34,064 bases of DNA, from positions 1-34,064 of the forward strand of contig NATV01000078.1 in NCBI GenBank assembly GCA_003094535.1. Direction: 5' to 3'. The stretch's first letter is position 1, and each line of letters starts with the position of its first letter. The translations under genes and the position numbers were made by a program. The stretch comes from a gamma proteobacterium symbiont of Ctena orbiculata. GTDB taxonomy: Bacteria > Pseudomonadota > Gammaproteobacteria > Chromatiales > Chromatiaceae. This document shows positions 17,810-33,615 of this stretch, piece by piece. Below the pieces are notes generated by a model. It worked only from the letters and a program-made list of their open reading frames with translations, did no database searches and was not told the DNA's origin.

Positions 17810-17885
17810 GGCCAGGTAGCTCAGTCGGTAGAGCAGGGGACTGAAAATCCCCGTGTCGGCAGTTCGATTCTGTCCCTGGCCACCA
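17810..17885 (+). tRNA. tRNA-Phe (anticodon GAA), island integration site
   Basis: 76 nt with encoded CCA. Acceptor GGCCAGG/CCTGGCC; anticodon arm GGGGA-CTGAAAA-TCCCC gives GAA. The last 45 nt of the gene belong to the 46-bp direct repeat that marks the left end of the island. Confidence 0.96.
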
Positions 17886-17886
17886 T
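17841..17886 (+). other. attL: 46-bp tRNA-Phe repeat, left copy
   Basis: From the anticodon loop of tRNA-Phe to one base past its CCA. It is identical to 31660-31705; the match ends at both edges. This is the typical core of a tyrosine-integrase attachment site in a tRNA 3' half. Confidence 0.9.
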
Positions 17887-17933
17887 AAAAATCAATAGGT
17901 TAGCCTTTCCTGCTTTTTAATCCCCGTGTCACT

Positions 17934-17952
17934 CGGTACAATTTCGGTACAC
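17934..17952 (+). promoter_or_regulatory. Paired integrase arm-type site candidates, left end
   Basis: CGGTACA (17934-17940) and CGGTACAC (17945-17952), 11 bp apart start to start. The same pair with the same spacing lies at 31521-31539 inside the right end. They overlap the region just upstream of the integrase ATG, so the integrase may also control its own expression. Confidence 0.6.
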
Positions 17953-17973
17953 TGCCAGTACCGGAGGCGTATC

Positions 17974-19017
17974 ATGGCGACTATCACCAAGACCCCGTCG
18001 AACACCTGGAAGGCTGTCATCCGTAAACGCGGCTGGCCTACGGCAATCAAAACATTTCGTACCAAACGCGATGCCGGGGACTGGGCGCGACGCACAGAAG
18101 ATGAGATGGTGCGGGGCGTGTACATCGACCGTGCCGGTGCTGACCGTATCCTGCTAGAGCAAGCACTGGGCCGCTACCTGCACGAGGTCTCCTCTACCAA
18201 AAGAGCCAGTACCCACAGCGCTGAGCAGCACAAAGCCAAGGCGCTGAGGGCTAATCTGGGAGCCTATAGTCTGGCGGCCATTACCCCTGACCTGGTTGCC
18301 AGGTATCGCGATGATCGTCTGGAGGAGGGCAAGTCAGCCAGCACGGTTCGGCTGGAGCTGTCGCTGCTCTCGCATCTTTTCACCATCGCCATTAAGGAGT
18401 GGCGTATCGGGCTGTTTTACAATCCTGTGGCGAACATCCGTAAACCAGCGCCGGCCAAAGGCCGTGATCGTCGATTAACCGCGGATGAAGAGAAGATCCT
18501 GTTCCAGGCCTGCGATAGACATTCCAACCCCATGCTTGGTTGGATCGCGCGCATTGCCCTTCACACCGGAATGCGTGCCGGCGAGATCAAGTCACTGACC
18601 CGGCGACAGGTGAACCTGCAGAAACGCACCGCGCATCTGAGCGAAACCAAGAATGGCTCGGCCCGCACCGTCCCGCTTACCCGCGAAGCAACCGAAGTCT
18701 TTCGCATAGCGCTAAGCAACCCTGTGCGCCCCCTCGAAACTGATCTGATCTTCTGGGGTGAGCCCGGTCGCGATGGTAAACGGCGACCTTATGAATTCCG
18801 CCCCGCCTGGCACCGTACACTGAAAGAGGCCGGTATCAAGGGCCTGCGCTTCCACGACCTCCGCCACGAGGCCGTCTCCCGCCTGGTGGAGGCAGGCCTC
18901 GGCGATCAGGAGGTCGCCGCGATCTCCGGCCATAAGTCGATGCAGATGCTTAAACGCTATACACACCTGCGTGCGGAGGATCTCGTCGAACGTCTGGATC
19001 AGGTATTCCACAGCTGA
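17974..19017 (+). CDS. Tyrosine-recombinase integrase of the tRNA-Phe island
   Basis: 347 aa from the ATG at 17974 with GGAGG seven bases upstream. N-terminal arm-binding segment with the phage-type ITKTPSNTWKAVIRKRGWPTAIKTF, core-binding domain at about residues 60-150, and a catalytic domain with Arg201 (HTGMRAGEI), Lys226, His294-x-x-Arg297 (HDLRHEAVSRL), His320 (SGHKS) and nucleophile Tyr329 (LKRYTHL). All catalytic residues are present, so it should be active. It is transcribed away from the tRNA, the normal arrangement. Confidence 0.95.
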   Translation: MATITKTPSNTWKAVIRKRGWPTAIKTFRTKRDAGDWARRTEDEMVRGVYIDRAGADRILLEQALGRYLHEVSSTKRASTHSAEQHKAKALRANLGAYSLAAITPDLVARYRDDRLEEGKSASTVRLELSLLSHLFTIAIKEWRIGLFYNPVANIRKPAPAKGRDRRLTADEEKILFQACDRHSNPMLGWIARIALHTGMRAGEIKSLTRRQVNLQKRTAHLSETKNGSARTVPLTREATEVFRIALSNPVRPLETDLIFWGEPGRDGKRRPYEFRPAWHRTLKEAGIKGLRFHDLRHEAVSRLVEAGLGDQEVAAISGHKSMQMLKRYTHLRAEDLVERLDQVFHS

Positions 19018-20007: not shown

Positions 20008-21696
20008 TTACTCTGGTAAGCCAGCTTTACGAAGATCCAACATCAACTTCTCCCGAATCGACTGCTCCTGGTATGGAAATGCATATTCCAGGAGTTTCAG
20101 AGAGAAGCCAGGATTAGAGATGGCCAGTTCATCCTTTTGCCAAGTCATCTCATCTTTGTTACCGATCTGGGCCAGAGCAACAATCAACCACATACGTGCA
20201 CGCATGTGTAACGGGCTGGCATTTAAAGCCCGATTGAAGGCATCAATCGCATCGACATACTTGCCTTGCACAAAATAGATCTCACCAAGGATCTCCGAGT
20301 AGGATGCTGGAACGATAGGATTGAGGCGCACAGCGGTCTCCAACGCTGACAAGGCCTCATTGGGATGGCCTGCAAAATTCATAATCCAAGCGAGCATAGC
20401 GTATGCGTCAGCATAATTCGGACTATAGGCTATTGCCTGTTTAGTTGCTTCGATGGCCTTTGCATGTTGACCATTGAACAGGGCAACCTGGCCAGTTACA
20501 AAATGGACCTGTGGTATCGATGGATTGATGGCGGCAGCTTTCTCCGCCAACTGTTCCGCTAAAGCCATAGATTGTCTAGGTGTTTCAGTCCAGCCGTCGA
20601 TAGCATCGCGGGAATGGACCAGAGCCAGTCCTGCAATAGCCCGTGCGAAATCCGGGACAAGGGCAATAGCCTGCTCATAATGTTCGCGAGCAGAACGATT
20701 ACTCTCGGGTGTGCGATGACCATATTCCTCCATCCCTCTCAGGAAAAGATCATAAGCTTCGACATTGTCAATGGGGTATTTCTTGAGGATGTCCCTCTCA
20801 TTAGGAGCCAACTTGATCCTGAGTGCAGCAACCAATGCCGTTACTACTTGATCCTGTAGTTCGAATATTTCTCCCATTTCGCTGTTATAGCGCTCTGCCC
20901 ACAGTGCCCTCTCACCGGCTGCCTCGATCAATTGCACATTGACTTGCAAGCGATCATCTTGGCGCTGTACGCTGCCTCGAACAATGTAGTCGACATCGAG
21001 TTCTCTGGATATTTGTCTTGTCTCTGATATGCTGCTCTGGTAAACGAATGCCGACCCGGGAGCAATCACCAGCAGGCCAGAAATTTTTGCTAGGTCTGTT
21101 ATCAGGTTTACCGTGATGCCATTTGCGAAATATTCCTGCCCTGGTTTTTCATCGAGGTTTTCAAATGGGATGATCGCAACAGAGGGTTTTCGCTCAACCG
21201 CCCCATCTGTAATCTGCTGCACAATTTTAGGAGCTGCCTGTTGTTGAATTAGCAGCCAACCCGCCACCCCCAGCAAGAACGCCAGGGAAAGCAGCAACCA
21301 GATCCAAAAACGGATATTCCGGGAAAGTGTTCTTTCAGAACCAGAGCGTTGTTGCAAAGACGGCTCAGGCTGGGCATCATTCCAATTCACTTCGGCAATC
21401 AGGCGATAGCCGGTTTTAGGCACGGTTTCGATTACTTTTGGGTTTCTGGCGTCATCTATAAAGGTCCGCCGGAGTTTTGATATTGTGTTAGTCAACGCGT
21501 CTTCACCTACGACGCGTCCCCAGATATTTTCCTCGAGCTCCGTCCGGCTGATCACACGTCCCGCATGGGCAGCAAAGTAGACTAAGAGCTGCATGGCCCT
21601 AGGCTCCAACCGCATTTTCCTCCCATCCCCTGTCACTCGCAGCAGGGAAGGTTCAACACGGTAACCGCCGAGCCTGAAGGTTTGGGTATCGTTCAT
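20008..21696 (-). CDS. CadC-like membrane transcriptional regulator with TolB-like and TPR domains
   Basis: 562 aa from the ATG at 21696 (a TTG at 21717, better placed after AGAGGA, would give 569). In order: OmpR/ToxR-type winged helix (FRLGGYRVEPSLLRV ... ISRTELEENIWG ... VIETVPKTGYRLIAEV), one membrane helix (about residues 130-150), a periplasmic TolB/FlgO-like domain (SVAIIPFENLDEKPGQEYFANGI ... DYIVRGSVQRQ), then several TPR units to the end. Such one-component proteins sense periplasmic signals and bind DNA from the membrane. It is divergent from the cupin-soxYZ operon across 215 bp and is the natural candidate to regulate it. Regulation is inferred from position only. Confidence 0.88.
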   Translation of the reverse strand: MNDTQTFRLGGYRVEPSLLRVTGDGRKMRLEPRAMQLLVYFAAHAGRVISRTELEENIWGRVVGEDALTNTISKLRRTFIDDARNPKVIETVPKTGYRLIAEVNWNDAQPEPSLQQRSGSERTLSRNIRFWIWLLLSLAFLLGVAGWLLIQQQAAPKIVQQITDGAVERKPSVAIIPFENLDEKPGQEYFANGITVNLITDLAKISGLLVIAPGSAFVYQSSISETRQISRELDVDYIVRGSVQRQDDRLQVNVQLIEAAGERALWAERYNSEMGEIFELQDQVVTALVAALRIKLAPNERDILKKYPIDNVEAYDLFLRGMEEYGHRTPESNRSAREHYEQAIALVPDFARAIAGLALVHSRDAIDGWTETPRQSMALAEQLAEKAAAINPSIPQVHFVTGQVALFNGQHAKAIEATKQAIAYSPNYADAYAMLAWIMNFAGHPNEALSALETAVRLNPIVPASYSEILGEIYFVQGKYVDAIDAFNRALNASPLHMRARMWLIVALAQIGNKDEMTWQKDELAISNPGFSLKLLEYAFPYQEQSIREKLMLDLRKAGLPE

Positions 21697-21717
21697 TTGT
21701 GAGCTTGTTTCAGGCAA

Positions 21718-21828
21718 AAAAAGTCCTCTGCAACCTATCGAAATCCTAACGCAGTAGACGGCTATTCTGTTGTTTATTAAAGAGAATACAAAAAACGGAA
21801 AAGTGACGGCTTTTCGTTAGGACTTTTT
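21718..21828. promoter_or_regulatory. Inverted repeats in the divergent regulator/cupin promoter region
   Basis: AAAAAGTCCT (21718-21727) is the reverse complement of AGGACTTTTT (21819-21828), and TCCTAACG (21744-21751) of CGTTAGGA (21815-21822). The two pairs share AGGA and lie between the regulator and the operon it probably controls, so they are candidate operator half-sites. A TTGACA at 21853-21858 has no convincing -10 at 17 bp. Confidence 0.4.
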
Positions 21829-21911
21829 AAAATTCTAGCACTATTAATTTCGTTGACAGCACCCACTTCTATCAAGGGCGCTTATCAATCGGTAGCAGAC
21901 AGGAGGAAGAA

Positions 21912-22382
21912 ATGAAAACACCTACCCAATTCATGGTCTTGTGCACTATTGGACTCATGACATCTATCACCGCTTTCGCTGGGGATACCCCCGATAGTGG
22001 CATCATGCTGACACCTGAGGAAATGAAATGGAAAGACAATCCTCGAGTGACCGGCTTAGGGGTCTCACATATCATTGGGCACGGTAAGAAACCGGGACCA
22101 TTTGTCTACCGGGTTAAATTTCCGAAGGGCCGTGTTGTCCAGGCTCATAGTCATCCTGATGATCGGACCTATACAGTGATTTCAGGTACCTGGTATATCG
22201 GGTGGGGTGACAAGTACGATCCGGACAAGTTGATCGCTTTGCCCGCAGGCAGCTTCTATACCGAACCGGCGGGCGTACCACATTTCATTTCCACCCCTGA
22301 TGGAGAAACAGTGGTACAGATAACGGGCACAGGTCCGACATCGGCGAAATTCGTTGATTCCGCCCACGCATCCAAAAAGTAG
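21912..22382 (+). CDS. Exported cupin-domain protein
   Basis: 156 aa with signal peptide (residues 1 to about 23, ending TAFA). Single cupin barrel: motif 1 around QAHSHPDDRTYTVISGTW (His-x-His; the usual Glu is not in place) and motif 2 GSFYTEPAGVPHF. It resembles DUF4437/ChrR-type cupins with the IGWGDKYDPDKLIALPAGSF segment. Ligand unknown; a metal could be bound by the three histidines. CAGGAGGAAG precedes the ATG. First gene of the operon; the ankyrin gene starts 10 bp after its stop. Confidence 0.85.
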   Translation: MKTPTQFMVLCTIGLMTSITAFAGDTPDSGIMLTPEEMKWKDNPRVTGLGVSHIIGHGKKPGPFVYRVKFPKGRVVQAHSHPDDRTYTVISGTWYIGWGDKYDPDKLIALPAGSFYTEPAGVPHFISTPDGETVVQITGTGPTSAKFVDSAHASKK

Positions 22383-22391
22383 GGGGCATAG

Positions 22392-23957
22392 ATGGTTATT
22401 TGCCAATACCTCTGTGCATTCTTGAAGCAGGTCAAATGGGCTCTGGTGACCGGGCTTCCGGCTGTGTTTTTGATAACCGGGGCCATGGCCAATCAACTGA
22501 TGTTGCACAACGTGGTTCAGGAAGAGAATAGGACCGCACTAAAACAGGCCATTGCATCTGCCGAATCGCTGGACGCCCGGGACCCGAATGGCTGGACCGC
22601 CTTAATGTACGCAACGAAGGCTGGCAAGTCAGATGCCGTATCCCTGCTGTTGACAGCAGGGGCATCACCGGACATCGGTGACCGCCTGGGCAGAACCCCG
22701 CTGAATATGGCTGTATCGGTTCCTAAGAAGGTTAGTCAACTGTTGATTCAGGCCGGGGCTGATATTAACCAACGCAATGCGGGTGGGGCAACTGCCCTTA
22801 TGTTGGCGGCGGGCAATGGAAGGCAGGATTTGGTCTCGTTGCTATTGGACGCCGGGGCCCGCTTAGACCTTAAGGACTATCAGGGAAACTCCGTAGTGGA
22901 CTGGTCTCGCCGGGGTGGTTTCGACGAACTAACCCGGAGGCTGGAACGGAGACTTGAGAAACAGGATAAGGTTGCGATTGCTAGTGGTGAGGAGTTTGCT
23001 GAAGACATATTTGTTGACGTGCAGTTTCCCGACTGGTTCAAGGCAAGTTTCCTGGATTTGAGTGAGGATCTGAAAGAGGCGCTCAATGCTGGTAAGCAGG
23101 GCCTCATGATTTTCATCAGCACCCGTCGTTGCAGCTATTGTAAAGCGTTCATTCAGAACTCCTTGAACCGACCGGACATTCAGGGGCGCGTAGAGACTTC
23201 CTTCGACGTGATCGGCCTGGAGATCTTTGACGACAGTGAAATGATTGATCCAGAGGGCAATAGCTATCGTGTGAAGGAGTTTGTCACCTCCAATAAGGCT
23301 GCCTATACGCCCACCTTGATCTTCTACGGCGTGTCAGGAAGAAAGCTGCTGAAAATCGTGGGCTACTATCCACCAGACAAGTTCCAAAAGGTACTGGACT
23401 ACCTGGAAGGAAAGCGTTATCTACACGAAACTCTACGCAGCTATCTCAACAGAACAGCCATATCCTCAACAAAATCGACATCAGACATCTCGGTCGATCA
23501 AGAGTTGTTTACTAAACCGCCCTACCTGCTTGACCGGAGGGCTGGTCCAGCGGCACGACCGTTGCTAGTCGTCTTTGAACGCCCCAACTGTGCAACCTGT
23601 GAGCGTTTTCATCGGCAGGTGCTTAGGGATAAATCAGTACGTCGTTTGATGAGGGAGTTTGAGGCCGTGCAACTTGATGCATCCAATACCAGCTCAGGCC
23701 TCATAATTCCAAATGGTGAGCGCATCTCACCTGCTCAATGGTTTGAGCGGCTAGACCTCTCATACAGTCCTGCAATTCTGTTTTTCGATGAATCAGGCAA
23801 TGAGGTCATGCGTTTGGACTCTGAAACCAAGCGTTTTCGCATGGAGGGGTCACTGCAGTTGGTGCTAGAGAAGGGTTATCTAAAGGACGCACAACTGCAA
23901 CGCTGGCGACGGGACAAGGCAGTGGAGTTGTTCAAGTTGAATGCTAGTAATGAATGA
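22392..23957 (+). CDS. Periplasmic ankyrin-repeat protein with two thioredoxin-like domains
   Basis: 521 aa. Residues 1-33 form a signal peptide ending AMA. About 40-185 are four ankyrin repeats (DPNGWTALMYATKAGKSDAV, DRLGRTPLNMAVSV, NAGGATALMLAAGNGRQDLV, DYQGNSVVDWSRRGG). Residues 230-350 form a first thioredoxin-like domain with the redox pair Cys247-Ser-Tyr-Cys250 (STRRCSYCKAF) and a likely cis-proline in YTPTLIFYG. Residues 375-505 form a second with Cys400-Ala-Thr-Cys403 (RPNCATCERF) and YSPAILFFD. The thioredoxin parts resemble the SoxW type of periplasmic thiol proteins. It lies 12 bp before soxY, so a role in reducing or loading the SoxY cysteine is the simplest hypothesis. The combined architecture is not one I recognise as a named family. 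Confidence 0.85.
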   Translation: MVICQYLCAFLKQVKWALVTGLPAVFLITGAMANQLMLHNVVQEENRTALKQAIASAESLDARDPNGWTALMYATKAGKSDAVSLLLTAGASPDIGDRLGRTPLNMAVSVPKKVSQLLIQAGADINQRNAGGATALMLAAGNGRQDLVSLLLDAGARLDLKDYQGNSVVDWSRRGGFDELTRRLERRLEKQDKVAIASGEEFAEDIFVDVQFPDWFKASFLDLSEDLKEALNAGKQGLMIFISTRRCSYCKAFIQNSLNRPDIQGRVETSFDVIGLEIFDDSEMIDPEGNSYRVKEFVTSNKAAYTPTLIFYGVSGRKLLKIVGYYPPDKFQKVLDYLEGKRYLHETLRSYLNRTAISSTKSTSDISVDQELFTKPPYLLDRRAGPAARPLLVVFERPNCATCERFHRQVLRDKSVRRLMREFEAVQLDASNTSSGLIIPNGERISPAQWFERLDLSYSPAILFFDESGNEVMRLDSETKRFRMEGSLQLVLEKGYLKDAQLQRWRRDKAVELFKLNASNE

Positions 23958-23969
23958 GGAGTGATAACC

Positions 23970-24443
23970 ATGACACCGAACACCAAGCGCAGAGACTTTC
24001 TGAAAGTCGCATTGATAATGGGGTTGGCTGGTAGCACCTTTGCTACTGGGCTGTTTGCTCCCCGGTATGTTTTAGCCGGCTGGAATCGAAAGGCATTTGA
24101 ATCCAAGCACGTTAATGACGCATTGAAAAACGGATTTGGAAGTTTGGATATCGTTATGTCAGATAACATCAATATTGAGGCCCCGGACATCGCAGCTAAC
24201 GGAGCCATAGTTCCTGTATCCGTAGTGGCAAAACTGTCAGCAGTAGAAGCCATTGCTCTGCTTTCAGAAAAAAATCCCAGACCTTTGGGTGCCATTTTTC
24301 ACCCTCGCGCGGGTATCCGGCCAAAGATGTCAGTACGCATTAAAATGGGGCAATCGGGCGATGTCATTGCAATCGTCAAGTCCGAGGGGAAATTATATAT
24401 GGCTCGACGAAGCATTAAGGTAACTGCGGGTGGTTGTGCTTAG
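23970..24443 (+). CDS. soxY: SoxY sulfur-carrier subunit, Tat-exported
   Basis: 157 aa from the ATG at 23970, preceded by GAGGAG. Tat signal TKRRDFLKVALIMGLAGS. The body (SLDIVMSDNINIEAPDIAANGAIVPVSV ... NPRPLGAIFHPRAGIRPKMSVRIKMGQSGDVIAIVKSEGKLY) is SoxY. The end is KVTAGGCA, placing the substrate-carrying cysteine penultimate; the canonical ending is GGCG(G), so the last residue differs. SoxYZ carries sulfur intermediates covalently on this cysteine during thiosulfate oxidation. No soxA, X, B or CD is on the island, so it must serve host Sox enzymes or a different reaction. Confidence 0.88.
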   Translation: MTPNTKRRDFLKVALIMGLAGSTFATGLFAPRYVLAGWNRKAFESKHVNDALKNGFGSLDIVMSDNINIEAPDIAANGAIVPVSVVAKLSAVEAIALLSEKNPRPLGAIFHPRAGIRPKMSVRIKMGQSGDVIAIVKSEGKLYMARRSIKVTAGGCA

Positions 24444-24498
24444 TAAATGAAGTCTAATTGTTGACTTCTCTTTTTCGACATAATCAGAGGCGACCAAC

Positions 24499-24816
24499 AT
24501 GAGTAAGAAAAATATAAAGATTCGCGCACGACTCAAGAATGGTGTGACAAATGTTAAGACCTTAATTTCCCATCCCATGGAAACAGGATTAAGAAAAGAT
24601 AAAAAGAGCGGGAGAACAATCCCGGCTCACTTTATTCAGGAAGTAAATTGCTTACACAACGGTGAATTGAAACTGTCAACGGAGTTGGGGATTTCGGTCT
24701 CAAGAAATCCCTATCTGCAATTTGAGCTCGAGGGCGGCGCCAAGGGGGACACCTTGGAGCTAACATGGCGAGACAATTGGGGGAAGACCGATACCGCCAC
24801 TGCGCAAATCAAATGA
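24499..24816 (+). CDS. soxZ: SoxZ, partner of SoxY
   Basis: 105 aa, standard length. It shows KIRARLKNGVTNVKTLISHPMETG, the conserved IPAHFIQEV, and the C-terminal GDTLELTWRDNWGKTDTATA. SoxZ has no signal of its own and is exported with SoxY by the Tat route. It is the last gene of the cupin-ankyrin/Trx-soxY-soxZ operon; no clear intrinsic terminator follows. Confidence 0.93.
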   Translation: MSKKNIKIRARLKNGVTNVKTLISHPMETGLRKDKKSGRTIPAHFIQEVNCLHNGELKLSTELGISVSRNPYLQFELEGGAKGDTLELTWRDNWGKTDTATAQIK

Positions 24817-25397
24817 TGTGAAATGGTCTTATATAAATCCCACTCAAGCCTGATTCTGCGTTGATACTAAATAGGCATCATAGTGGTAGCAGTTTAGGAT
24901 GGCACGATTCCAACTGTGTACTTCTAGTAGATTCTCGTAGGCCTGCCGGCTATTGCTCCATCATTAGAAGTCATTCTCAGTAAACATAACCTTGTTAATT
25001 ATCTCACGTGACACAATTTTCAAAGCAGTTTTTCAATAAAGTTACTTCAATTTTTCCTCACAAATTAATAGAATTAAGTGACCGTTTTGGTCGATGACTG
25101 CTATTGCAAAACGAAACTTCAATGTCTGCAATGTGTAGATTCTGTTGAAAAACTCTGTTCTCTGACAGAGGCTGCTTTCTAGTCGTGAGAATTCCCGAAA
25201 TCACCTTCGCGAGAACGCAAGAAGGTAAGTGTCTTCCTGATTTTTCTTTCAGATTTCACGTAGGAGCGCGCCGTGCTGAACAGATTTTCAAACCCAGGAG
25301 TTTTTCAACATGGCGTAATTCCGGGATCGCTTCGTCGCAGCACATTGGCTAAGTTGAATGTGTAATCGACGTAGTGAACCTACAGGAGGATAGCAAG
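24817..25397. other. 581-bp AT-rich intergenic region upstream of the IS110 transposase
   Basis: No credible ORF. The right part contains the 168-bp TIR-bounded element (25143-25310). The long non-coding stretch before the recombinase is where IS110-group elements encode a bridge RNA, but I cannot identify one by eye. Confidence 0.6.
25143..25310. mobile_element. MITE-like element, 168 bp, 13-bp terminal inverted repeats
   Basis: TGTTGAAAAACTC (25143-25155) and GAGTTTTTCAACA (25298-25310) are perfect inverted repeats resembling ends of IS5/IS1182-type elements. The interior has no transposase. No target-site duplication is evident. Part of it may instead be an internal deletion remnant of an IS. 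Confidence 0.55.
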
Positions 25398-26429
25398 ATG
25401 ATCAGCTATGTTGGATTAGATGTATCTCTGAAAAGTACGTCAGTCTGCGTGGTCGATGTGGAAGGTTCTGTACTGATAGAGCAATCCGTAGCTTCGGAGC
25501 CAGATACTATCGCAAACTTTATTCATACGAATGCGTTGGAGGTTCAGCGCGTTGGCTTGGAGTCCGGCCCCACTTCGATTTGGTTTTGGCGAGAGCTGGC
25601 GCAACGAGGCTTACCCGTGATCTGTATTGATGCTCGCCATGCTCGGGCGGCCTTGTCCATGCAGATCAACAAGTCCGACCGAAACGACGCCGTTGGAATA
25701 GCGCGGATCATGCAGACGGGATGGTACCGAGAGGTACAGATCAAATCCCCACATAGCGATATGATACGTGCACTTCTGACCAGTCGGGCGTTGTTGGTCA
25801 AGATAAGGCGTGACCTGGAGAACCAGATACGCGGCTTGCTGAAGGTGGAAGGGCTCGTGATTGGTCGAGCGACGAAGAGAGTATTCGCCAGGCGGGTGGA
25901 GTCCTCGCTTGCGAATCGGTCGGATGTGGCGGAAATTGTCCGTCCTTTGTTGGAGACGCGACAGGCGGACCAGCAGCAATTGGTGACGCTGGATAAAGGG
26001 GTACGTCAACTGGCCGTTGAGACGCCGCTGACACAAAATTTCATGACAGTTCCTGGCGTGGGGCCAATCACAGCGTTGGCCTTCATGGCGGCCATTGATG
26101 ATCCGAGGCGGTTCAAACGCTCACGCAGTGTCGGTGCTTATCTCGGCCTAACGCCGCGCCGACATGCCTCCGGCGAGATTGACTGGAACGGGCGCATCTC
26201 GAAGTGCGGCAACAGCTTAGTTCGCACTTACCTGTTCGAGGCCGCAGGAGTGTTGCTCACACGAGTGCCTCAATCATGTGCACTCAAGGCATGGGGTCTC
26301 CGTATTGCCAAACGATCAGGTATGAAAAAAGCCCGTACGGCAGTGGCTAGAAAACTAGCCGTCATTCTTCACCGAATGTGGCTCGAGGGTACTGAGTTCC
26401 AATGGACGATCGAAAGCAAGACCGTTTGA
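25398..26429 (+). CDS. IS110 family transposase
   Basis: 343 aa from the ATG at 25398 (AGGAGGA upstream). N-terminal RuvC-like DEDD domain begins YVGLDVSLKSTSVCVVD; the middle carries DARHARAALSMQINKSDRNDAVGIARIM; the C-terminal Transposase_20 domain carries MTVPGVGPITALAFMAAI and ISKCGNSLVRTYLFEAA with the likely catalytic serine (RHASGEIDW or GNSLVR). It is complete, with no frameshift seen. IS110 recombinases work with a bridge RNA coded in the element's non-coding end. Confidence 0.95.
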   Translation: MISYVGLDVSLKSTSVCVVDVEGSVLIEQSVASEPDTIANFIHTNALEVQRVGLESGPTSIWFWRELAQRGLPVICIDARHARAALSMQINKSDRNDAVGIARIMQTGWYREVQIKSPHSDMIRALLTSRALLVKIRRDLENQIRGLLKVEGLVIGRATKRVFARRVESSLANRSDVAEIVRPLLETRQADQQQLVTLDKGVRQLAVETPLTQNFMTVPGVGPITALAFMAAIDDPRRFKRSRSVGAYLGLTPRRHASGEIDWNGRISKCGNSLVRTYLFEAAGVLLTRVPQSCALKAWGLRIAKRSGMKKARTAVARKLAVILHRMWLEGTEFQWTIESKTV

Positions 26430-28379: not shown

Positions 28380-28604
28380 TTCAACTCACTGACTTAAAGG
28401 AGGTGTATCCACACTCAGAAGACGCCCGACTTCGGGCAGGTTGGTCTGCGTGGGACCCTTTCTCAACCGAGAAAAACCCGCGTTGCCTGTGACCAGGCAT
28501 CTTCAGGTCAAACGGGAGTTGTGTCCCATGACCGTTTCCCGAAAGCGGACTCAGTTAGCCAAGGCTGCTGAGTGGTCAGAAACACTTACCAGAGAGAGTA
28601 CACA
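28380..28604 (+). ncRNA. Candidate structured RNA / leader of the second recombinase gene
   Basis: Contains AAAGGAGGTG without a start codon at proper distance, then GCCCGA-CT-TCGGGC (28424-28437), TGCCTG-TGAC-CAGGCA (28484-28499) and weaker GC pairings, ending at the recombinase ATG. It may be a regulatory leader, a recombination site for the recombinase, or both. Hand-read structures only. Confidence 0.3.
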
Positions 28605-29471
28605 ATGAGAGACCTGAACTACCAACTGAAACAGCTCTGCCGTCAGAACCGGGAGGGCAGCTATGCCACCCAGGTACGCCGGGAGCGTGACCTGACCCTA
28701 ATTGCCAATCAGCTCCCCGAACTGGGCTATCGGGGGATGAGCACCCAATCTCTGAAACCGAAACATGTGGATGCCCTGGTCAAACACTGGTTTGCCCAGG
28801 AGCTGTCGATTGGAACCATCAAGAACCGCATGGCAGTGATTCGCTGGTGGTCGCAAAAGGTGGACAAACAGAATGTGGTGGCTCGTTCCAACGAGCACTA
28901 CGGTATCCCGGACCGGCGCTTTGTAGCCAACGAGTCCAAGGCAAAGACAGTCACCGAATCACAACTGGACAGCGTCCGCGATAAACATGTCCGTATGAGC
29001 CTGGAGTTGCAGCAGGTCTTTGGTCTGCGCCGGGAAGAGGCGATCAAGTTCCAGCCAAGCTATGCAGACCAGGGCGACCATATCCTCCTCAAGCCCAGTT
29101 GGACCAAGGGCGGAAAAGAGCGGACCATACCGATTAGAACCGATGAACAGCGGGATGTGCTCAACCGGGCACACCGCCTGGCCGGTCTTGGCTCCCTGAT
29201 TCCGAGCTCCCGCAACTACATTCATCAGCTGCGTGTCTACGAAGGCAACACTCGAAGGGCAGGGCTTCACCACATGCACGGCCTGCGCCATGCATACGCC
29301 CAGGACCGCTATGCAGAACTGACCGGCTGGAAAACCCCGGCCGCAGGCGGACCGGGAAGAAAGGCCCTGACACCAGAACAACGCGAGGTCGATCGGCAGG
29401 CACGCCTCACTATCAGTAGGGAGTTGGGACATGAGCGCGAGGCCGTAGTCGGGGTCTATATCGGGCGGTAA
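28605..29471 (+). CDS. Second tyrosine recombinase (Integrase_1 / phage_int_SAM_2 type)
   Basis: 288 aa from the ATG at 28605. N-terminal SAM-like core-binding domain (LNYQLKQLCRQNREGSYATQVRRERDL, residues 1-110) and catalytic domain with Arg142 (FGLRREEAI), Lys168 or Lys171, His225-x-x-Arg228 (HGLRHAYAQ), His276 (LGHERE) and Tyr285 (GVYIGR). An insertion of about 30 residues separates the HxxR box from the His-Tyr box. This class occurs on integrative elements, and its own target is unknown. It is unrelated to the island integrase, so it may be left from another element or resolve or shuffle DNA within the island. Confidence 0.88.
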   Translation: MRDLNYQLKQLCRQNREGSYATQVRRERDLTLIANQLPELGYRGMSTQSLKPKHVDALVKHWFAQELSIGTIKNRMAVIRWWSQKVDKQNVVARSNEHYGIPDRRFVANESKAKTVTESQLDSVRDKHVRMSLELQQVFGLRREEAIKFQPSYADQGDHILLKPSWTKGGKERTIPIRTDEQRDVLNRAHRLAGLGSLIPSSRNYIHQLRVYEGNTRRAGLHHMHGLRHAYAQDRYAELTGWKTPAAGGPGRKALTPEQREVDRQARLTISRELGHEREAVVGVYIGR

Positions 29472-29529
29472 GGCCGATAACAAATTTATTTTATGGGGTT
29501 TTTTAATCCTGTTTGGATTATGAAACGAT

Positions 29530-29598
29530 CTATACATATGTACTCTCACATGTATAGAAAAACAATGTTTTATTGACATGATGGAGTTATATGTATAG
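29530..29598. promoter_or_regulatory. Three ATGTATAG motifs and a promoter upstream of the Fic gene
   Basis: CTATACAT at 29530-29537 (inverted), ATGTATAG at 29550-29557 and again at 29591-29598. A TTGACA at 29573-29578 with TAGAAA 17 bp on (29596-29601) makes a plausible promoter whose -10 overlaps the last copy. The repeats could be an operator for the Fic protein's own winged helix. Confidence 0.45.
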
Positions 29599-29643
29599 AA
29601 AGTAGGTTATTTATATACACATTCTGGACAGCAGAAAACCGCA

Positions 29644-30768
29644 ATGACCGAAGGGACTATCACACTGTTGCCACCCGATACCGAGCTGGAAACCCGCCCG
29701 GTCCTGAAGGCGCTGGCACCCGCCCATCGCTACCTGGCGGAACTCAAGGGCCTGGCCGCGACCATCCCCAATGAGCACATTCTAATCAATACCCTGGCGT
29801 TGCAGGAGGCCAAGGACAGTTCCGAGATCGAGAACGTCATCACCACCCACGACGAACTCTACAAGGCGGATTTGTTCTCGGATTACGTTAAAAACCCCGC
29901 CGCCAAGGAAGTCAGCCGTTACGCTACGGCGCTGAAAACGGCCTTCGAACAGATCAGGCGCGACCGGTTGATCAGCGTGAACCGTATCGTGGAAACGCAC
30001 CGGGTGCTGGAACAGAACGATGCGGGCATCCGCAGATTGCCGGGCACAGCGCTAAAGAACGAGCGCACCGGTGAAACCGTGTACACACCGCCGCAAGATT
30101 ACGGCGAGATTGTGCGTCTGATGAATAATCTGGAACAGTTCATCAATGATGATGCACTGTACGACGCAGACCCGTTGGTCAAGATGGCGATCATCCACCA
30201 CCAGTTCGAAAGCATCCATCCGTTCTACGACGGCAACGGCCGCACTGGCCGCATCATCAATATCTTGTATCTGGTATCCAAGGGCCTGCTGGATATTCCC
30301 GTCCTTTATCTCAGCCGGTACATCATCCGCAACAAACCAAACTACTATCGGCTGTTACAAGCCACCCGCGATACCGGCGACTGGGAGCCCTGGCTTCTCT
30401 ACATGCTCGACGGCGTCGAGCTGACTGCACGCCAGACTATTTGGATCATCCGCCGCATCAAGGAAATCATGATGGCCTACAAGCACCGCATACGTTCAGA
30501 ACTACCGAAGATCTACAGCCAGGATCTGCTCAATAACCTGTTCCGGCACCCCTATACCAAGATCGAATCCGTGCAGGCGGACTTGGGCGTGTCCCGGCTG
30601 ACGGCGACAAAATACCTGGAGCAGCTCACCGACAAGGGCCTCATCGAGAAGCACAAAATCGGACGATACAACTACTACGTTAATCGTCCCCTGATGAACA
30701 TCTTTATAGATATACCCGACATGCCGGATAACGAAGAAGCAGGCGATGCCGCAACTGGAGCACATTGA
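29644..30768 (+). CDS. Fic-domain protein AMPylator with N-terminal inhibitory helix
   Basis: 374 aa. An N-terminal Fic_N domain carries the inhibitory motif S/TxxxE(G/N) as Ser59-SEI-Glu63-Asn64 (class II, intramolecular). The catalytic loop is HPFYDGNGRTGR (His192-Arg203), complete. The C-terminus (about 285-360) is a winged helix: YTKIESVQADLGVSRLTATKYLEQLTDKGLIEKHKIGRYNYY. Fic enzymes transfer AMP to a hydroxyl of a target protein; the target here is unknown. Genes of this type often accompany type I restriction-modification loci, and an hsdM stub overlaps its 3' end. Confidence 0.93.
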   Translation: MTEGTITLLPPDTELETRPVLKALAPAHRYLAELKGLAATIPNEHILINTLALQEAKDSSEIENVITTHDELYKADLFSDYVKNPAAKEVSRYATALKTAFEQIRRDRLISVNRIVETHRVLEQNDAGIRRLPGTALKNERTGETVYTPPQDYGEIVRLMNNLEQFINDDALYDADPLVKMAIIHHQFESIHPFYDGNGRTGRIINILYLVSKGLLDIPVLYLSRYIIRNKPNYYRLLQATRDTGDWEPWLLYMLDGVELTARQTIWIIRRIKEIMMAYKHRIRSELPKIYSQDLLNNLFRHPYTKIESVQADLGVSRLTATKYLEQLTDKGLIEKHKIGRYNYYVNRPLMNIFIDIPDMPDNEEAGDAATGAH

Positions 30769-30931
30769 AGCCACCGAAAAACGTCTGTGGACTGCGGCGG
30801 ACACTCTGCGTGCAAACGCCAACTACGTTAGTCACGAGCACTTCCTGCTGGCTATGGGCCTTGTGTTCCTGTGTTATGCTCACCCGACGCTACCGTCACC
30901 GCTTTATGCATCAGGCTCTGTAACAGGATAG
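30746..30931 (+). pseudogene. hsdM: Truncated hsdM (type I restriction-modification methylase), N-terminal stub
   Basis: 61 codons. Residues 5-46 (HIEATEKRLWTAADTLRANANYVS, then FLLAMGLVFLCYAH) follow the N-terminus of HsdM, which typically reads LEKRLWDAADxLRANS and VLGLIFLRYA. After YAH the match ends and the frame stops at 30931. Wild-type HsdM has about 500 residues, so the methylase domain and any hsdS/hsdR are gone. The start overlaps the Fic gene by 23 bp. Confidence 0.65.
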
Positions 30932-30934
30932 AGG

Positions 30935-31453
30935 ATGCAGCTCATTCGATGCACAAAAAAGCTCCAAAAAGAAATGGGGCTAAAGCAGCCCGATTTGTGT
31001 GCTGAGGAACCGCGCTTCTCCTATCTCGGTCCTTGGCATGCCAACTTGTTTCATATTGACCGGCGCAAGTGCGTGCTGTTTATAAATGATAAGACCCTAT
31101 TTAATTTCATAGTGCCGGATGTTCCGAGATCTCAGATCAAGGAACTGGATAAGTTGTTCAAGAACCACCTGAGTTGTGTGCTTGCCGCCGAAGACTTTGC
31201 CGAGGAGGAGCGGGCCAGGATACTGTCAGAGTATGATGAGGGTGGTTTCGCTAACACCAGCAGTAAAAGCGTACTTGGTTCGATGAACGACCTGGCATTC
31301 CATTACAAATACAGCATTCTGAACGCAGGTGGAGTACACAGTCCCACAGTGCCGGAGATCATTCGCCAACTCAATCGTATGCCCATGGGGTCTCTCAAAT
31401 ACGTATTTCCTATCGAGGCGTTGAAAGACCTGTATCAGACGATAGAAAAATAA
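30935..31453 (+). CDS. DUF6933 family protein
   Basis: 172 aa. It begins MQLIRCTKKLQKEMGL and contains WHANLFHIDRRKCVLFINDKTLFNFIV, characteristic of the DUF6933 family; function unknown. The start lies three bases after the hsdM stub's stop, with AGGA upstream. It is the last gene before the right island end. Likely a solitary cargo gene. Confidence 0.82.
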   Translation: MQLIRCTKKLQKEMGLKQPDLCAEEPRFSYLGPWHANLFHIDRRKCVLFINDKTLFNFIVPDVPRSQIKELDKLFKNHLSCVLAAEDFAEEERARILSEYDEGGFANTSSKSVLGSMNDLAFHYKYSILNAGGVHSPTVPEIIRQLNRMPMGSLKYVFPIEALKDLYQTIEK

Positions 31454-31520
31454 GCGTGGGTTTATCTTTACTTAAAGTCCAGAAGCAATTTTTATCGGCG
31501 TTTTGTGGACGTATTGTTTT

Positions 31521-31539
31521 CGGTACACTTACGGTACAC
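31521..31539 (+). promoter_or_regulatory. Paired integrase arm-type site candidates, right end
   Basis: CGGTACAC at 31521-31528 and again at 31532-31539, 11 bp apart, in the same orientation and spacing as at 17934-17952. An inverted TGTACCG occurs at 31605-31611. Confidence 0.6.
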
Positions 31540-31659
31540 CGCCAATTTTCGACTATCTGGGCTAATCTGGATTAACCTACTGAATCAACACAATAATCCC
31601 TAACTGTACCGAAGACTCCCTGTTCCAATATAATCAGTAAGTTATTGATTTTACTGGCC

Positions 31660-31705
31660 CTGAAAATCCCCGTGTCGGCAGTTCGATTCTGTCCCTGGCC
31701 ACCAT
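31660..31705 (+). other. attR: 46-bp tRNA-Phe repeat, right copy
   Basis: Identical to 17841-17886. It contains the 3' half of tRNA-Phe from the anticodon loop without the 5' half, so it is not a functional tRNA gene. Confidence 0.9.
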
Positions 31706-31711
31706 TCAGAT

Positions 31712-32047
31712 CTATGGCTTGCCATTCCCGACTTCCTTATCAAAAACCACCAGCTCGAGTTTTTGACCACGTTGATCACACACCGAATCGGCCGCCTCGA
31801 TCAGCCGTGACAGCTCGGCTGTGGAGAAGTGCGTGGTGATCCTTCCCGATCGATGACCCAACAGGTCCTGGCGATCCTCGAAGCTCACCCCTATTGCGCG
31901 CAAGCGTCTGCCGAAGGTGTGCTTGAGGTCATGTACCCGAACCTACCTCAGGCCAGTCTTCCCTCTCGCCCGCATCCATGCGCTGTGCGGCATCCGGGTA
32001 ACCGATATTCCCCGATAGGATAAGGCAAACGCGGAATGTTTCCATCG
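31712..32047 (-). pseudogene. C-terminal remnant of a different tyrosine integrase, interrupted by TAG
   Basis: On the minus strand, 32047-31712 reads RWKHSAFALSYRG, VTRM, SAWMRARGKTGLR, stop (TAG, plus-strand 31943-31945), then VRVHDLKHTFGRRLRAIG, SFEDRQDLLGHRSGRITTHFS and AELSRLIEAADSVC. This is the end of a phage-type integrase, with HxxK/HTF box, LGH box and no nucleophile tyrosine evident where ITTHFS (usually THYS) now has Phe. The N-terminal two-thirds are missing and the intI stop lies 25 bp beyond. It ends 7 bp from attR. It is a relic of an older element at the same tRNA. Confidence 0.8.
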
Positions 32048-32071
32048 CATGGTGCTTCATGGTTTAAATTT

Positions 32072-33475
32072 CTATGAAACGGGTTGATCCAGGGGACTGA
32101 GAACGCCGACACCGGGCTGATTGAGCACATGCGTGTAGATCATCGTGGTCGACACATTGGCATGGCCCAGCAAGGCCTGCACCGTACGGATGTCGTAATT
32201 GGCCTCCAACAGATGGGTGGCAAAGCTGTGCCGCAGGGTATGACACCCCACCCGTTTATTGATCTGAGCGGCAGCCGCCGCCCGCTTCACCGCCTTCTGG
32301 ATCGCAGTTTCATGCAAGTGATGGCGGCGAATTTCCCCGCCATAGGGATCGACGGAGAGACGACCGGAAGGAAAGAGGAACTGCCACTTGAGCTCTCTGC
32401 CCGCATTTGGGTATTTACGGGCCAATGCACCGGGCAAGACGACTTCTCCGTGACCAGTAGCCAAATCTTCAGTATGCAACCGCTCGACCTCACGGATTTG
32501 ATGTTGCAGCTCGGCAACCAATGTCTTAGGCAGCGGAACGTACCGATCCTTCTTGCCTTTGGCCTGATGGATATGGATGCGCCCGTAGGCGAAATCGAGA
32601 TCCTGCACCCGGAGCCTTAGCCCCTCGAGCAGACGCATACCTGTTCCATAGAGTAGAGAGACAACCAATTTGTGAATACCCGTCAGTTGGTTGAGTAGGG
32701 CGGTTGCTTCACTACGACTGAGAACGACAGGCAGATTTTGCGGCCGTTTGGCTCGCGTAAAGGCTTCCAACTCACCCAGTTTACGTTCAAGTACCTGTTT
32801 ATAAAGAAAAACCAAGGCATTGAGCGCCTGATTTTGCGTGCTTGCACTGACCCGACGCCGGATGGCCAAGTGATCGAGGAAGCGTTTTACCTCGCGAGCC
32901 CCCACTTCAGATGGAGGTTGATTCTTGCAAAACAGAATGAAACGTCCGACCCATTGTTCATAAATTTGTTCTGTACGGTAGGCATAGCCTCGCCGTCGAA
33001 TCTCTTGGGTAAAACGAACCAGTAATGAGTGGTGGTCCTTTCGCACCTGATTGAGAAGGCCGTCACCCTTGCGTTCTTTGATGTAGGATAATTGCTCGGG
33101 TGTGAGCTGACGTGCGGTCGTTGGATGATCTATCTCAAGCTGTTTTGCGGAATCAAACCAATAGTGCCAATCGACTTCCTGACACTGTGGTGTCTGCAAC
33201 AGATCGCAGTAGAGAATCCGTATAGCATCGATGTATTGGTGGAATTGCCAGCCTGAGAGCTGTTTTTGGCGGCCTATCATTTCCAAGTAGTTATGGATAT
33301 TCAGGACTGAAAGCGCCTTGATTTTGTGGCCATTTTGCGCCTTAATGAAATCCTCTAGGCGTTTAACATACCAGCGGCGTTGCTTCTCAGGTATGGAAGC
33401 GTTAATGAGACATTTCAGGTAGTTATCAAAAAAACGGGCAGTGGGGTCATGGACGATGGCAGAAGCATCTTTCAT
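32072..33475 (-). CDS. intI: Integron integrase (IntI family) with N-terminal extension
   Basis: 467 aa from the ATG at 33475, preceded by AAGGAGAG. The C-terminal 320 residues are an IntI: core-binding domain (LLVRFTQEIRRRGYAYRTEQIYEQWVGRFILF), Arg box GTGMRLLEGLRLR, Lys in KGKKDRYVPLP, the integron-specific insert FPSGRLSVDPYGGEIRRHHL with HETAIQKAVKRA, then HTLRHSFATHLLE, LGHANVSTTMIYTHV. All catalytic residues are present. About 130 extra N-terminal residues (RWYVKRLEDFIKAQNGHKIKAL...) look like a second SAM-like core-binding domain; IntI1 has 337 aa. The cassettes lie upstream on the opposite strand, the standard layout. Confidence 0.93.
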   Translation of the reverse strand: MKDASAIVHDPTARFFDNYLKCLINASIPEKQRRWYVKRLEDFIKAQNGHKIKALSVLNIHNYLEMIGRQKQLSGWQFHQYIDAIRILYCDLLQTPQCQEVDWHYWFDSAKQLEIDHPTTARQLTPEQLSYIKERKGDGLLNQVRKDHHSLLVRFTQEIRRRGYAYRTEQIYEQWVGRFILFCKNQPPSEVGAREVKRFLDHLAIRRRVSASTQNQALNALVFLYKQVLERKLGELEAFTRAKRPQNLPVVLSRSEATALLNQLTGIHKLVVSLLYGTGMRLLEGLRLRVQDLDFAYGRIHIHQAKGKKDRYVPLPKTLVAELQHQIREVERLHTEDLATGHGEVVLPGALARKYPNAGRELKWQFLFPSGRLSVDPYGGEIRRHHLHETAIQKAVKRAAAAAQINKRVGCHTLRHSFATHLLEANYDIRTVQALLGHANVSTTMIYTHVLNQPGVGVLSPLDQPVS

Positions 33476-33615
33476 AAAAACTCTCCTTGTTACTAATACG
33501 GGCATCCTGCCCGAAAATGATCAATTTCATTTTTCATGCTATGCCGAATCGGCCAATAACACAATAGGCCGCGTCCGCACTATTAGTAATAGTGAAGATT
33601 CTGTCTAATGTAATG
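33476..33615. other. attI region and intI promoter region
   Basis: Sequence between intI and the first cassette. The recombination point is likely within GTTAAGGC at 33615-33622, after the G. It contains a hairpin CGGGCA-TCC-TGCCCG (33499-33513) in the intI leader and a 17-bp palindrome CACTATTA-G-TAATAGTG (33578-33594). No LexA-type CTGT-N8-ACAG box was found. Confidence 0.55.

Follow-up and report, generated by a model that had tools for sequence, protein, structure and literature searches.

A soxYZ block with a proposed ankyrin-thioredoxin partner on a tRNA-Phe island of a Ctena orbiculata symbiont

Why would a genomic island carry genes for a SoxYZ sulfur carrier beside genes for a cupin and a thiol-active ankyrin protein? 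The question is raised by contig NATV01000078.1 of a gammaproteobacterial symbiont of Ctena orbiculata (assembly GCA_003094535.1). This source genome (G000) measures 4.29 Mb in 182 contigs and is 99.99% complete, and the window analyzed here is the whole 34,064 nucleotides of its contig C78. Four open frames at 21912–24816 encode a cupin, an ankyrin protein with two CxxC thioredoxin-like folds (ANK-Trx for short), SoxY, and SoxZ. We give about an even chance to the reading that this block is a mobile accessory module, in which a separately regulated SoxYZ paralog and a dedicated thiol-disulfide and persulfide partner feed host sulfur oxidation. We infer the joint function of the genes from their order, their conservation, and the families to which they belong.

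A conserved gene block with its own regulator

The features of the locus are as follows.

20008–21717, minus strand: divergent regulator, ToxR/CadC-like (Trans_reg_C, TolB_N, TPR repeats)
21815–21843, plus strand: conserved intergenic motif, candidate operator/promoter (comparison across genomes)
21912–22382, plus strand: cupin, signal-like N-terminus (by eye), Pfam Cupin_7/Cupin_2
22392–23957, plus strand: ANK-Trx, signal-like N-terminus (by eye), ankyrin repeats, two thioredoxin-like domains with C247/C250 and C400/C403
23970–24443, plus strand: SoxY paralog, twin-arginine motif RRDFLK, C-terminus VTAGGCA
24499–24816, plus strand: SoxZ paralog, TIGR04490 match

The tight packing described in the first-pass annotation was confirmed, with intergenic gaps of 9, 12, and 55 bp and each family matched by profile. 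Pfam profiles on ANK-Trx report Ank together with Thioredoxin_2 and Thioredoxin_7, and the ATG at 23970 is preferred as the better soxY start. Signal-like stretches and the twin-arginine motif were read by eye, without a signal predictor. On this reading, the description of the block as encoding only exported proteins holds for the cupin, ANK-Trx, and SoxY, but not for SoxZ, which has no signal of its own. SoxZ is expected to be co-exported with SoxY. A scan of the region for promoters and terminators yielded no lead (3 promoters vs. 3.5 expected; 6 terminators vs. 3.8 expected). A terminator-like hairpin with a T tail lies at 24449–24468, within the soxY–soxZ gap.

The order cupin–ANK-Trx–SoxY–SoxZ is identical in G000, G015, and G113, and ANK-Trx–SoxY–SoxZ is found additionally in G124 and G125. 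The association is therefore not a chance arrangement. The earlier annotation would have fallen had the genes not recurred beside soxYZ elsewhere, and the ANK-Trx–soxYZ pairing was found in four further genomes.

A fifth gene, overlooked earlier, belongs to the unit of the operon. This divergent gene encodes a regulator (REG) of 569 amino acids, in which a hydrophobic stretch at about residues 136–158 looks on inspection like a transmembrane helix. A homolog adjoins the ANK-Trx operon in 13 of the 15 genomes that carry ANK-Trx; in the other two, it lies ∼5.3 kb away (G049) or is represented by pieces ∼6 kb away (G455). For G124 and G125, adjacency is read from one contig that holds the regulator and the start of ANK-Trx, the rest of which is on another contig. 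In G138, a 92-amino-acid, exported-looking frame without a Pfam match lies between the regulator and the cupin (L043 2552–2830).

When three mismatches are allowed, the motif between regulator and operon occurs once each in G000, G015, G138, G124, G125, and G506, but is not found in G113, although the block is present there. In total, it occurs in six of the seven genomes searched that have both regulator and ANK-Trx and in none of five without ANK-Trx, and the reversed pattern is found in none of the 12. Because the motif was built from several of the genomes searched, only G124 and G125 are independent test cases.

A distinct SoxYZ lineage and the remaining Sox genes

Both carrier proteins score as true members of their families. 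SoxY reaches 138.5 bits with TIGR04488 (cut-off 125) and its C156 lines up with the cysteine on the arm of SoxY chains of solved structure, and SoxZ reaches 126.3 bits with TIGR04490 (cut-off 76). G000 carries five SoxY loci. In the 29-row trees, all five block SoxYs cluster together (92/99), as do the block SoxZs (99/100), and both clusters are separate from the housekeeping copies. These groups persist in trees of 31 rows (SoxY 98/99, SoxZ 98/100). The 29-row trees exclude fused SoxYZs, a SoxY cut short on C172, and further matches to SoxY, and the 31-row trees further exclude the C117 pair, the second copies of G009 and G404, and the G125 block, which is identical to that of G124. The trees show the block SoxYZ to be a paralogous lineage beside the housekeeping pair of G000.

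This lineage also differs in its swinging arm. The TIGR04488 model names a GGCGG end, whereas the G000 protein ends in GGCA, that of G015 in SGCA, and those of G124 and G125 in GGCS. Shortened ends are thus present in three of the four distinct block sequences, compared with GGCGG in all 23 housekeeping-type SoxYs checked. Such arms would suit a block SoxYZ whose cargo is not thiosulfate but sulfide, polysulfide, or an organic thiol, and which is no longer served by SoxAX or SoxB and is loaded by ANK-Trx. The diverged, YeeE-linked SoxYs of G002 and G013, which fall apart from the block in the tree, end in GGCT and GGCA, and the proposal that diverged SoxYs handle other substrates has been made by Sudo et al. 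(PMC11237559). However, block SoxY and SoxZ pass true-family cut-offs, the block SoxY of G113 retains GGCGG, and SoxA and SoxB are present in the same genomes. We consider this alternative improbable.

Other diverged carriers were encountered. The SoxYZ of G049 (L027 13187–15819; SoxY end SGGCS) is encoded divergently from the same kind of regulator, and the tree places it with the YeeE-linked SoxYs. Its grouping with the block was not adopted, given this placement, though constraining the trees to that grouping is not rejected (p-AU 0.129 for SoxY and 0.079 for SoxZ, with long branches and unsettled bootstrap). G000 C117 (L004) and G009 C6 (L153) each hold a diverged SoxYZ pair with the SoxY end GGAGGCG. 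On C117, the pair adjoins a gene that by eye resembles one for a membrane cytochrome.

The first-pass annotation took the rest of the Sox system to be absent and the module to be self-contained. Absence is true of the window, since profile searches of C78 returned neither soxA nor soxB, and the canonical single-cluster arrangement is not seen. The genome tells otherwise, and the notion of a self-contained module does not survive: G000 encodes SoxA, a housekeeping soxYZ, and a soxB that is cut by an assembly gap. These searches covered SoxA, SoxB, and SoxYZ. SoxA is over its cut-off in all 12 genomes searched, G000 included, where it is found on C76 only. The SoxB profile matched in 22 genomes of a 23-genome set, over the cut-off in 21; G208 has only pieces, and G000 has no match at all. 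However, contig C121 (L127; 3,039 bp) follows the corresponding stretch of G015 and stops just short of soxB, and C108 (L128) opens with the last 30 SoxB codons, 86.7% identical to G015. This places soxB in an assembly gap, and loss of the gene from G000 was rejected accordingly. A genome rated 99.99% complete was thus scored by profile as lacking soxB on account of that gap.

All four other genomes in which ANK-Trx directly precedes soxYZ (G015, G113, G124, and G125) have SoxB and SoxA over the cut-offs. In PMC11237559, soxB, soxAX, and soxYZ are reported at split locations. This arrangement, taken with the surroundings of soxB and soxYZ in G015, suggests that the genus is Candidatus Thiodiazotropha-like. 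In G124, a single contig (C243, L044) holds both soxA and the soxYZ block, ∼8 kb apart.

The tRNA-Phe island and movement of the block

Four features delimit the element that carries the block.

17810–17885, plus strand: tRNA-Phe (gaa), integration target (ARAGORN; Rfam RF00005 at 17810–17882)
17841–17886, no strand assigned: left attachment repeat, 46 bp exact, 3′ half of tRNA-Phe (repeat comparison)
17926–19017, plus strand: tyrosine recombinase (integrase) adjoining the attachment site (PF00589)
31660–31705, no strand assigned: right attachment repeat, identical 46-bp copy of the tRNA-Phe end (repeat comparison)

An integrase and a direct repeat of the tRNA end at both borders identify an integrative island. 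The tRNA island proposed earlier is thereby borne out, and its right end is now located. The G+C content is 0.593 to the left of the island, 0.513 within it, and 0.502 past its right end. Since G+C is similarly low beyond the right end, composition marks the left border only. An IS110-family transposase gene is located at 25374–26429, downstream from soxZ. The region 28572–33505 holds a second integrase, a Fic protein, and a DUF6933 gene within the island, and a third integrase past its right end.

At the block stretches of G015 and G113 (L026, L045), no tRNA was found and no integrase was seen among the frames, which were read by eye and without a profile. This indicates that the block is not tied to the tRNA-Phe site.

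The block of G000 is closer to that of G124, from another genus, than to that of its congener G015. Identities to G124 are 69.5% for REG, 68.5% for ANK-Trx, and 66.2% for SoxY (REG and ANK-Trx of G124 being partial), compared with 61.5%, 64.0%, and 56.7% to G015. For SoxZ there is hardly any difference (73.3% vs. 72.4%). The SoxY trees likewise pair G000 with G124 (98/88 with 29 rows; 98/86 with 31 rows), and the housekeeping SoxY of G000 groups with its congeners. The island shows mobility; on the source of the block, the trees of the individual genes disagree. The pattern suggests that a SoxYZ carrier can pass from one genus to another as a compact unit with its own regulation.

ANK-Trx as a candidate carrier partner, and comparison with known systems

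Both CxxC motifs (C247/C250 and C400/C403) are invariant in 11 ANK-Trx proteins, as are P307 and P460, which we take to be the two cis-Pro positions of the fold. A profile of the thioredoxin part, built from five ANK-Trx proteins and 10 ankyrin-less relatives, matches solved DsbC (2.9e-15) and DsbD chains. PMC10451225 describes SoxS as a periplasmic thiol-disulfide oxidoreductase that targets SoxYZ and reduces false mixed disulfides on it. PMC11582611 reports that SoxS binds SoxY and proposes that a periplasmic protein with two CxxC motifs sets sulfur free from SoxYZ.

The mechanism favored here for the module would operate as follows. The membrane regulator would sense a periplasmic signal and drive the operon from the conserved motif. 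SoxYZ would be exported via the Tat pathway and carry sulfur on the arm cysteine of SoxY. ANK-Trx may then act as its dedicated, SoxS-like partner for thiol-disulfide and persulfide exchange, with the ankyrin part serving to dock SoxYZ or some other protein. Of the two thioredoxin folds, one could resolve mixed disulfides or remove sulfane sulfur from SoxY, and the second could reload the first. Freed sulfur, or the repaired carrier, would enter the sulfur oxidation already present in the host, and the cupin would be an optional metal-binding accessory.

The ANK-Trx query matches in 51 of 56 relatives (E ≤ 0.001), mostly in part, and is full-length in two of the 22 genomes of the genus. Within the order, 10 of 210 genomes match at E ≤ 1e-85, and in eight of these the match extends beyond the thioredoxin part (the G125 match begins at residue 158 in the listed piece). 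Nine of 369 genomes of the class match, five of them full-length or nearly so. A sample of 398 genomes of the phylum gave only G000 itself, and named genome contigs gave 10 loci, seven in genomes already counted. Overall, there are 15 distinct carriers. ANK-Trx as a plasmid gene is not supported, with no plasmid match at E 1e-10, nor is it supported as a viral gene: 59 viral-contig stretches fitted a pattern, and none encodes a relative. A search of phage records for SoxY found none at E 1e-3. In G125 (L046, L143), ANK-Trx is read in two frames, which reflects decay or an assembly error.

Several observations weigh against a dedicated carrier module. Foremost, ANK-Trx mostly occurs without block soxYZ, which lies directly downstream in only five of the 15 genomes (those with the block order given above). 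In eight, no soxYZ occurs in the 863 to 7,900 bp of downstream sequence covered, and G138 has the cupin and ANK-Trx but no soxY start in the 327 bp before its contig ends. No SoxS-named chain was matched when solved chains were searched with the thioredoxin profile, where the presence of SoxS among those chains is unconfirmed. The unshortened SoxY arm of G113 is a further point. As to movement of the block, the SoxZ trees (29 and 31 rows) do not pair G000 with G124, G000 joins G113 in the REG tree (85/90), and the ANK-Trx tree does not decide where G000 belongs; the latter two trees exclude G125 because of its split ANK-Trx frame.

The prevalence of ANK-Trx without soxYZ makes a general repair function the chief rival. 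Under this explanation, the regulator and ANK-Trx would serve periplasmic disulfide or oxidative-stress repair in general, while soxYZ joined them by capture in a single family and is only co-expressed with them. The regulator is indeed the more constant neighbor of ANK-Trx. Together with G138, the soxYZ-linked form is one lineage among forms that lack soxYZ (REG 98/97, ANK-Trx 82/78), and the best solved relatives of the thioredoxin part are DsbC and DsbD. In contrast, G049, from another family, has soxYZ beside the regulator and ANK-Trx ∼4.3 kb away, which is a possible second meeting of the three genes. Moreover, apart from G000, every ANK-Trx genome searched (11 of 11) gave a SoxB match, and in 10 of them the match passed the cut-off. 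We regard general repair as somewhat unlikely. Because the regulator is adjacent to ANK-Trx in 13 of 15 genomes, soxYZ in five, and the cupin in four, the regulator and ANK-Trx form the core of the unit, and soxYZ and the cupin look like later additions.

Ankyrin repeats also raise the possibility that the protein mediates contact with an animal host and that soxYZ is incidental. A role in host interaction has been suggested for ankyrin proteins of Endoriftia (PMC7787665), and two named carriers of the block are, by title, symbionts of Lamellibrachia anaximandri. However, the full block is also carried by Milos-ODIII6 and the regulator/ANK-Trx pair by Arenicellales bins, whose titles mention no host, and the CxxC motifs are invariant. 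The chance that this explanation is correct appears extremely slim.

The cupin offers a lead. H79, H81, and H124 are invariant in seven cupin proteins, and so is R85, which occupies what we take to be the place of the classic cupin Glu. The gene adjoins ANK-Trx in four of the 15 genomes and is absent between regulator and ANK-Trx in G124 and G125, and it was therefore rejected as an obligatory part; relatives occur in eight of 204 genomes of the order at E 1e-15. Thiol dioxygenases use a three-His metal site, according to the available text of PMC8050391. It is conceivable, though highly unlikely, that the cupin is a three-His thiol or persulfide dioxygenase that uses O2 to oxidize sulfur on the SoxY arm, a task that falls to SoxCD elsewhere, while ANK-Trx resets the carrier. 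Profiles did not place it among thiol dioxygenases: Pfam (E ≤ 0.001) gave Cupin_7, Cupin_2, and DUF4437 under the cut-off, NCBIfam gave nothing, and the best E value among solved structures was only 0.096. Were this so, the cupin dioxygenase, SoxYZ, and ANK-Trx would make up a small pathway for sulfur held on the carrier, one that could be passed between genomes. G161 (L138 2138–4848) has a similar but distinct kit, where genes for a cupin, an ankyrin-less double-thioredoxin, and a SoxH-like metallohydrolase (below cut-off) lie in a row.

A carrier module with a thiol partner, as favored here, bears on the route by which sulfur is taken from SoxYZ where the Sox system is truncated, and on why symbiotic sulfur oxidizers keep several soxY genes. 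With a single SoxY lineage set beside a single thiol-active protein and a switch of its own, the island offers a concrete protein pair to test. Expansion of the SoxY gene family in symbiotic sulfur oxidizers, with diverged arms, has already been published (Sudo et al. 2024; PMC11237559). The literature searched contained no paper joining soxYZ, ankyrin, and thioredoxin, and none on ankyrin with thioredoxin in a periplasmic sulfur-oxidation operon, so that the ANK-Trx linkage is without a printed record there. Both soxY and ankyrin repeats occur in the available part of PMC7787665, where they are handled separately. The main text of PMC11237559 does not mention ankyrin, thioredoxin, or cupin.

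The system resembles several known ones in part. Like the diverged genes described by Sudo et al., block soxY is one of several per genome, with differing swinging-arm signatures and unusual neighborhoods, but the S1c type of that study adjoins YeeE/dsrAB/dmsAB (PMC11237559). G000 C111 (L002) encodes a further accessory carrier, in which SoxY and SoxZ are fused (TIGR04557, 263 bits); next to it is a SoxH-like metallohydrolase (TIGR04559, 374 bits). That quinoprotein relay also joins a SoxYZ-like accessory carrier to a partner gene, but its carrier is fused and its partner has a metallo-beta-lactamase fold, with no ANK-Trx. With the thiosulfate Sox carrier, the block shares SoxY and SoxZ scores over NCBIfam cut-offs, the arm cysteine, and the twin-arginine motif, whereas it differs in having its own clade, its own regulator, a GGCA arm, and no soxA or soxB on the contig. 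Finally, as with SoxS and SoxW, a thioredoxin-fold protein is encoded beside soxYZ, which is the target of SoxS in the sources cited above. Unlike SoxS, ANK-Trx combines two thioredoxin-like domains of DsbC/DsbD-like sequence with ankyrin repeats.

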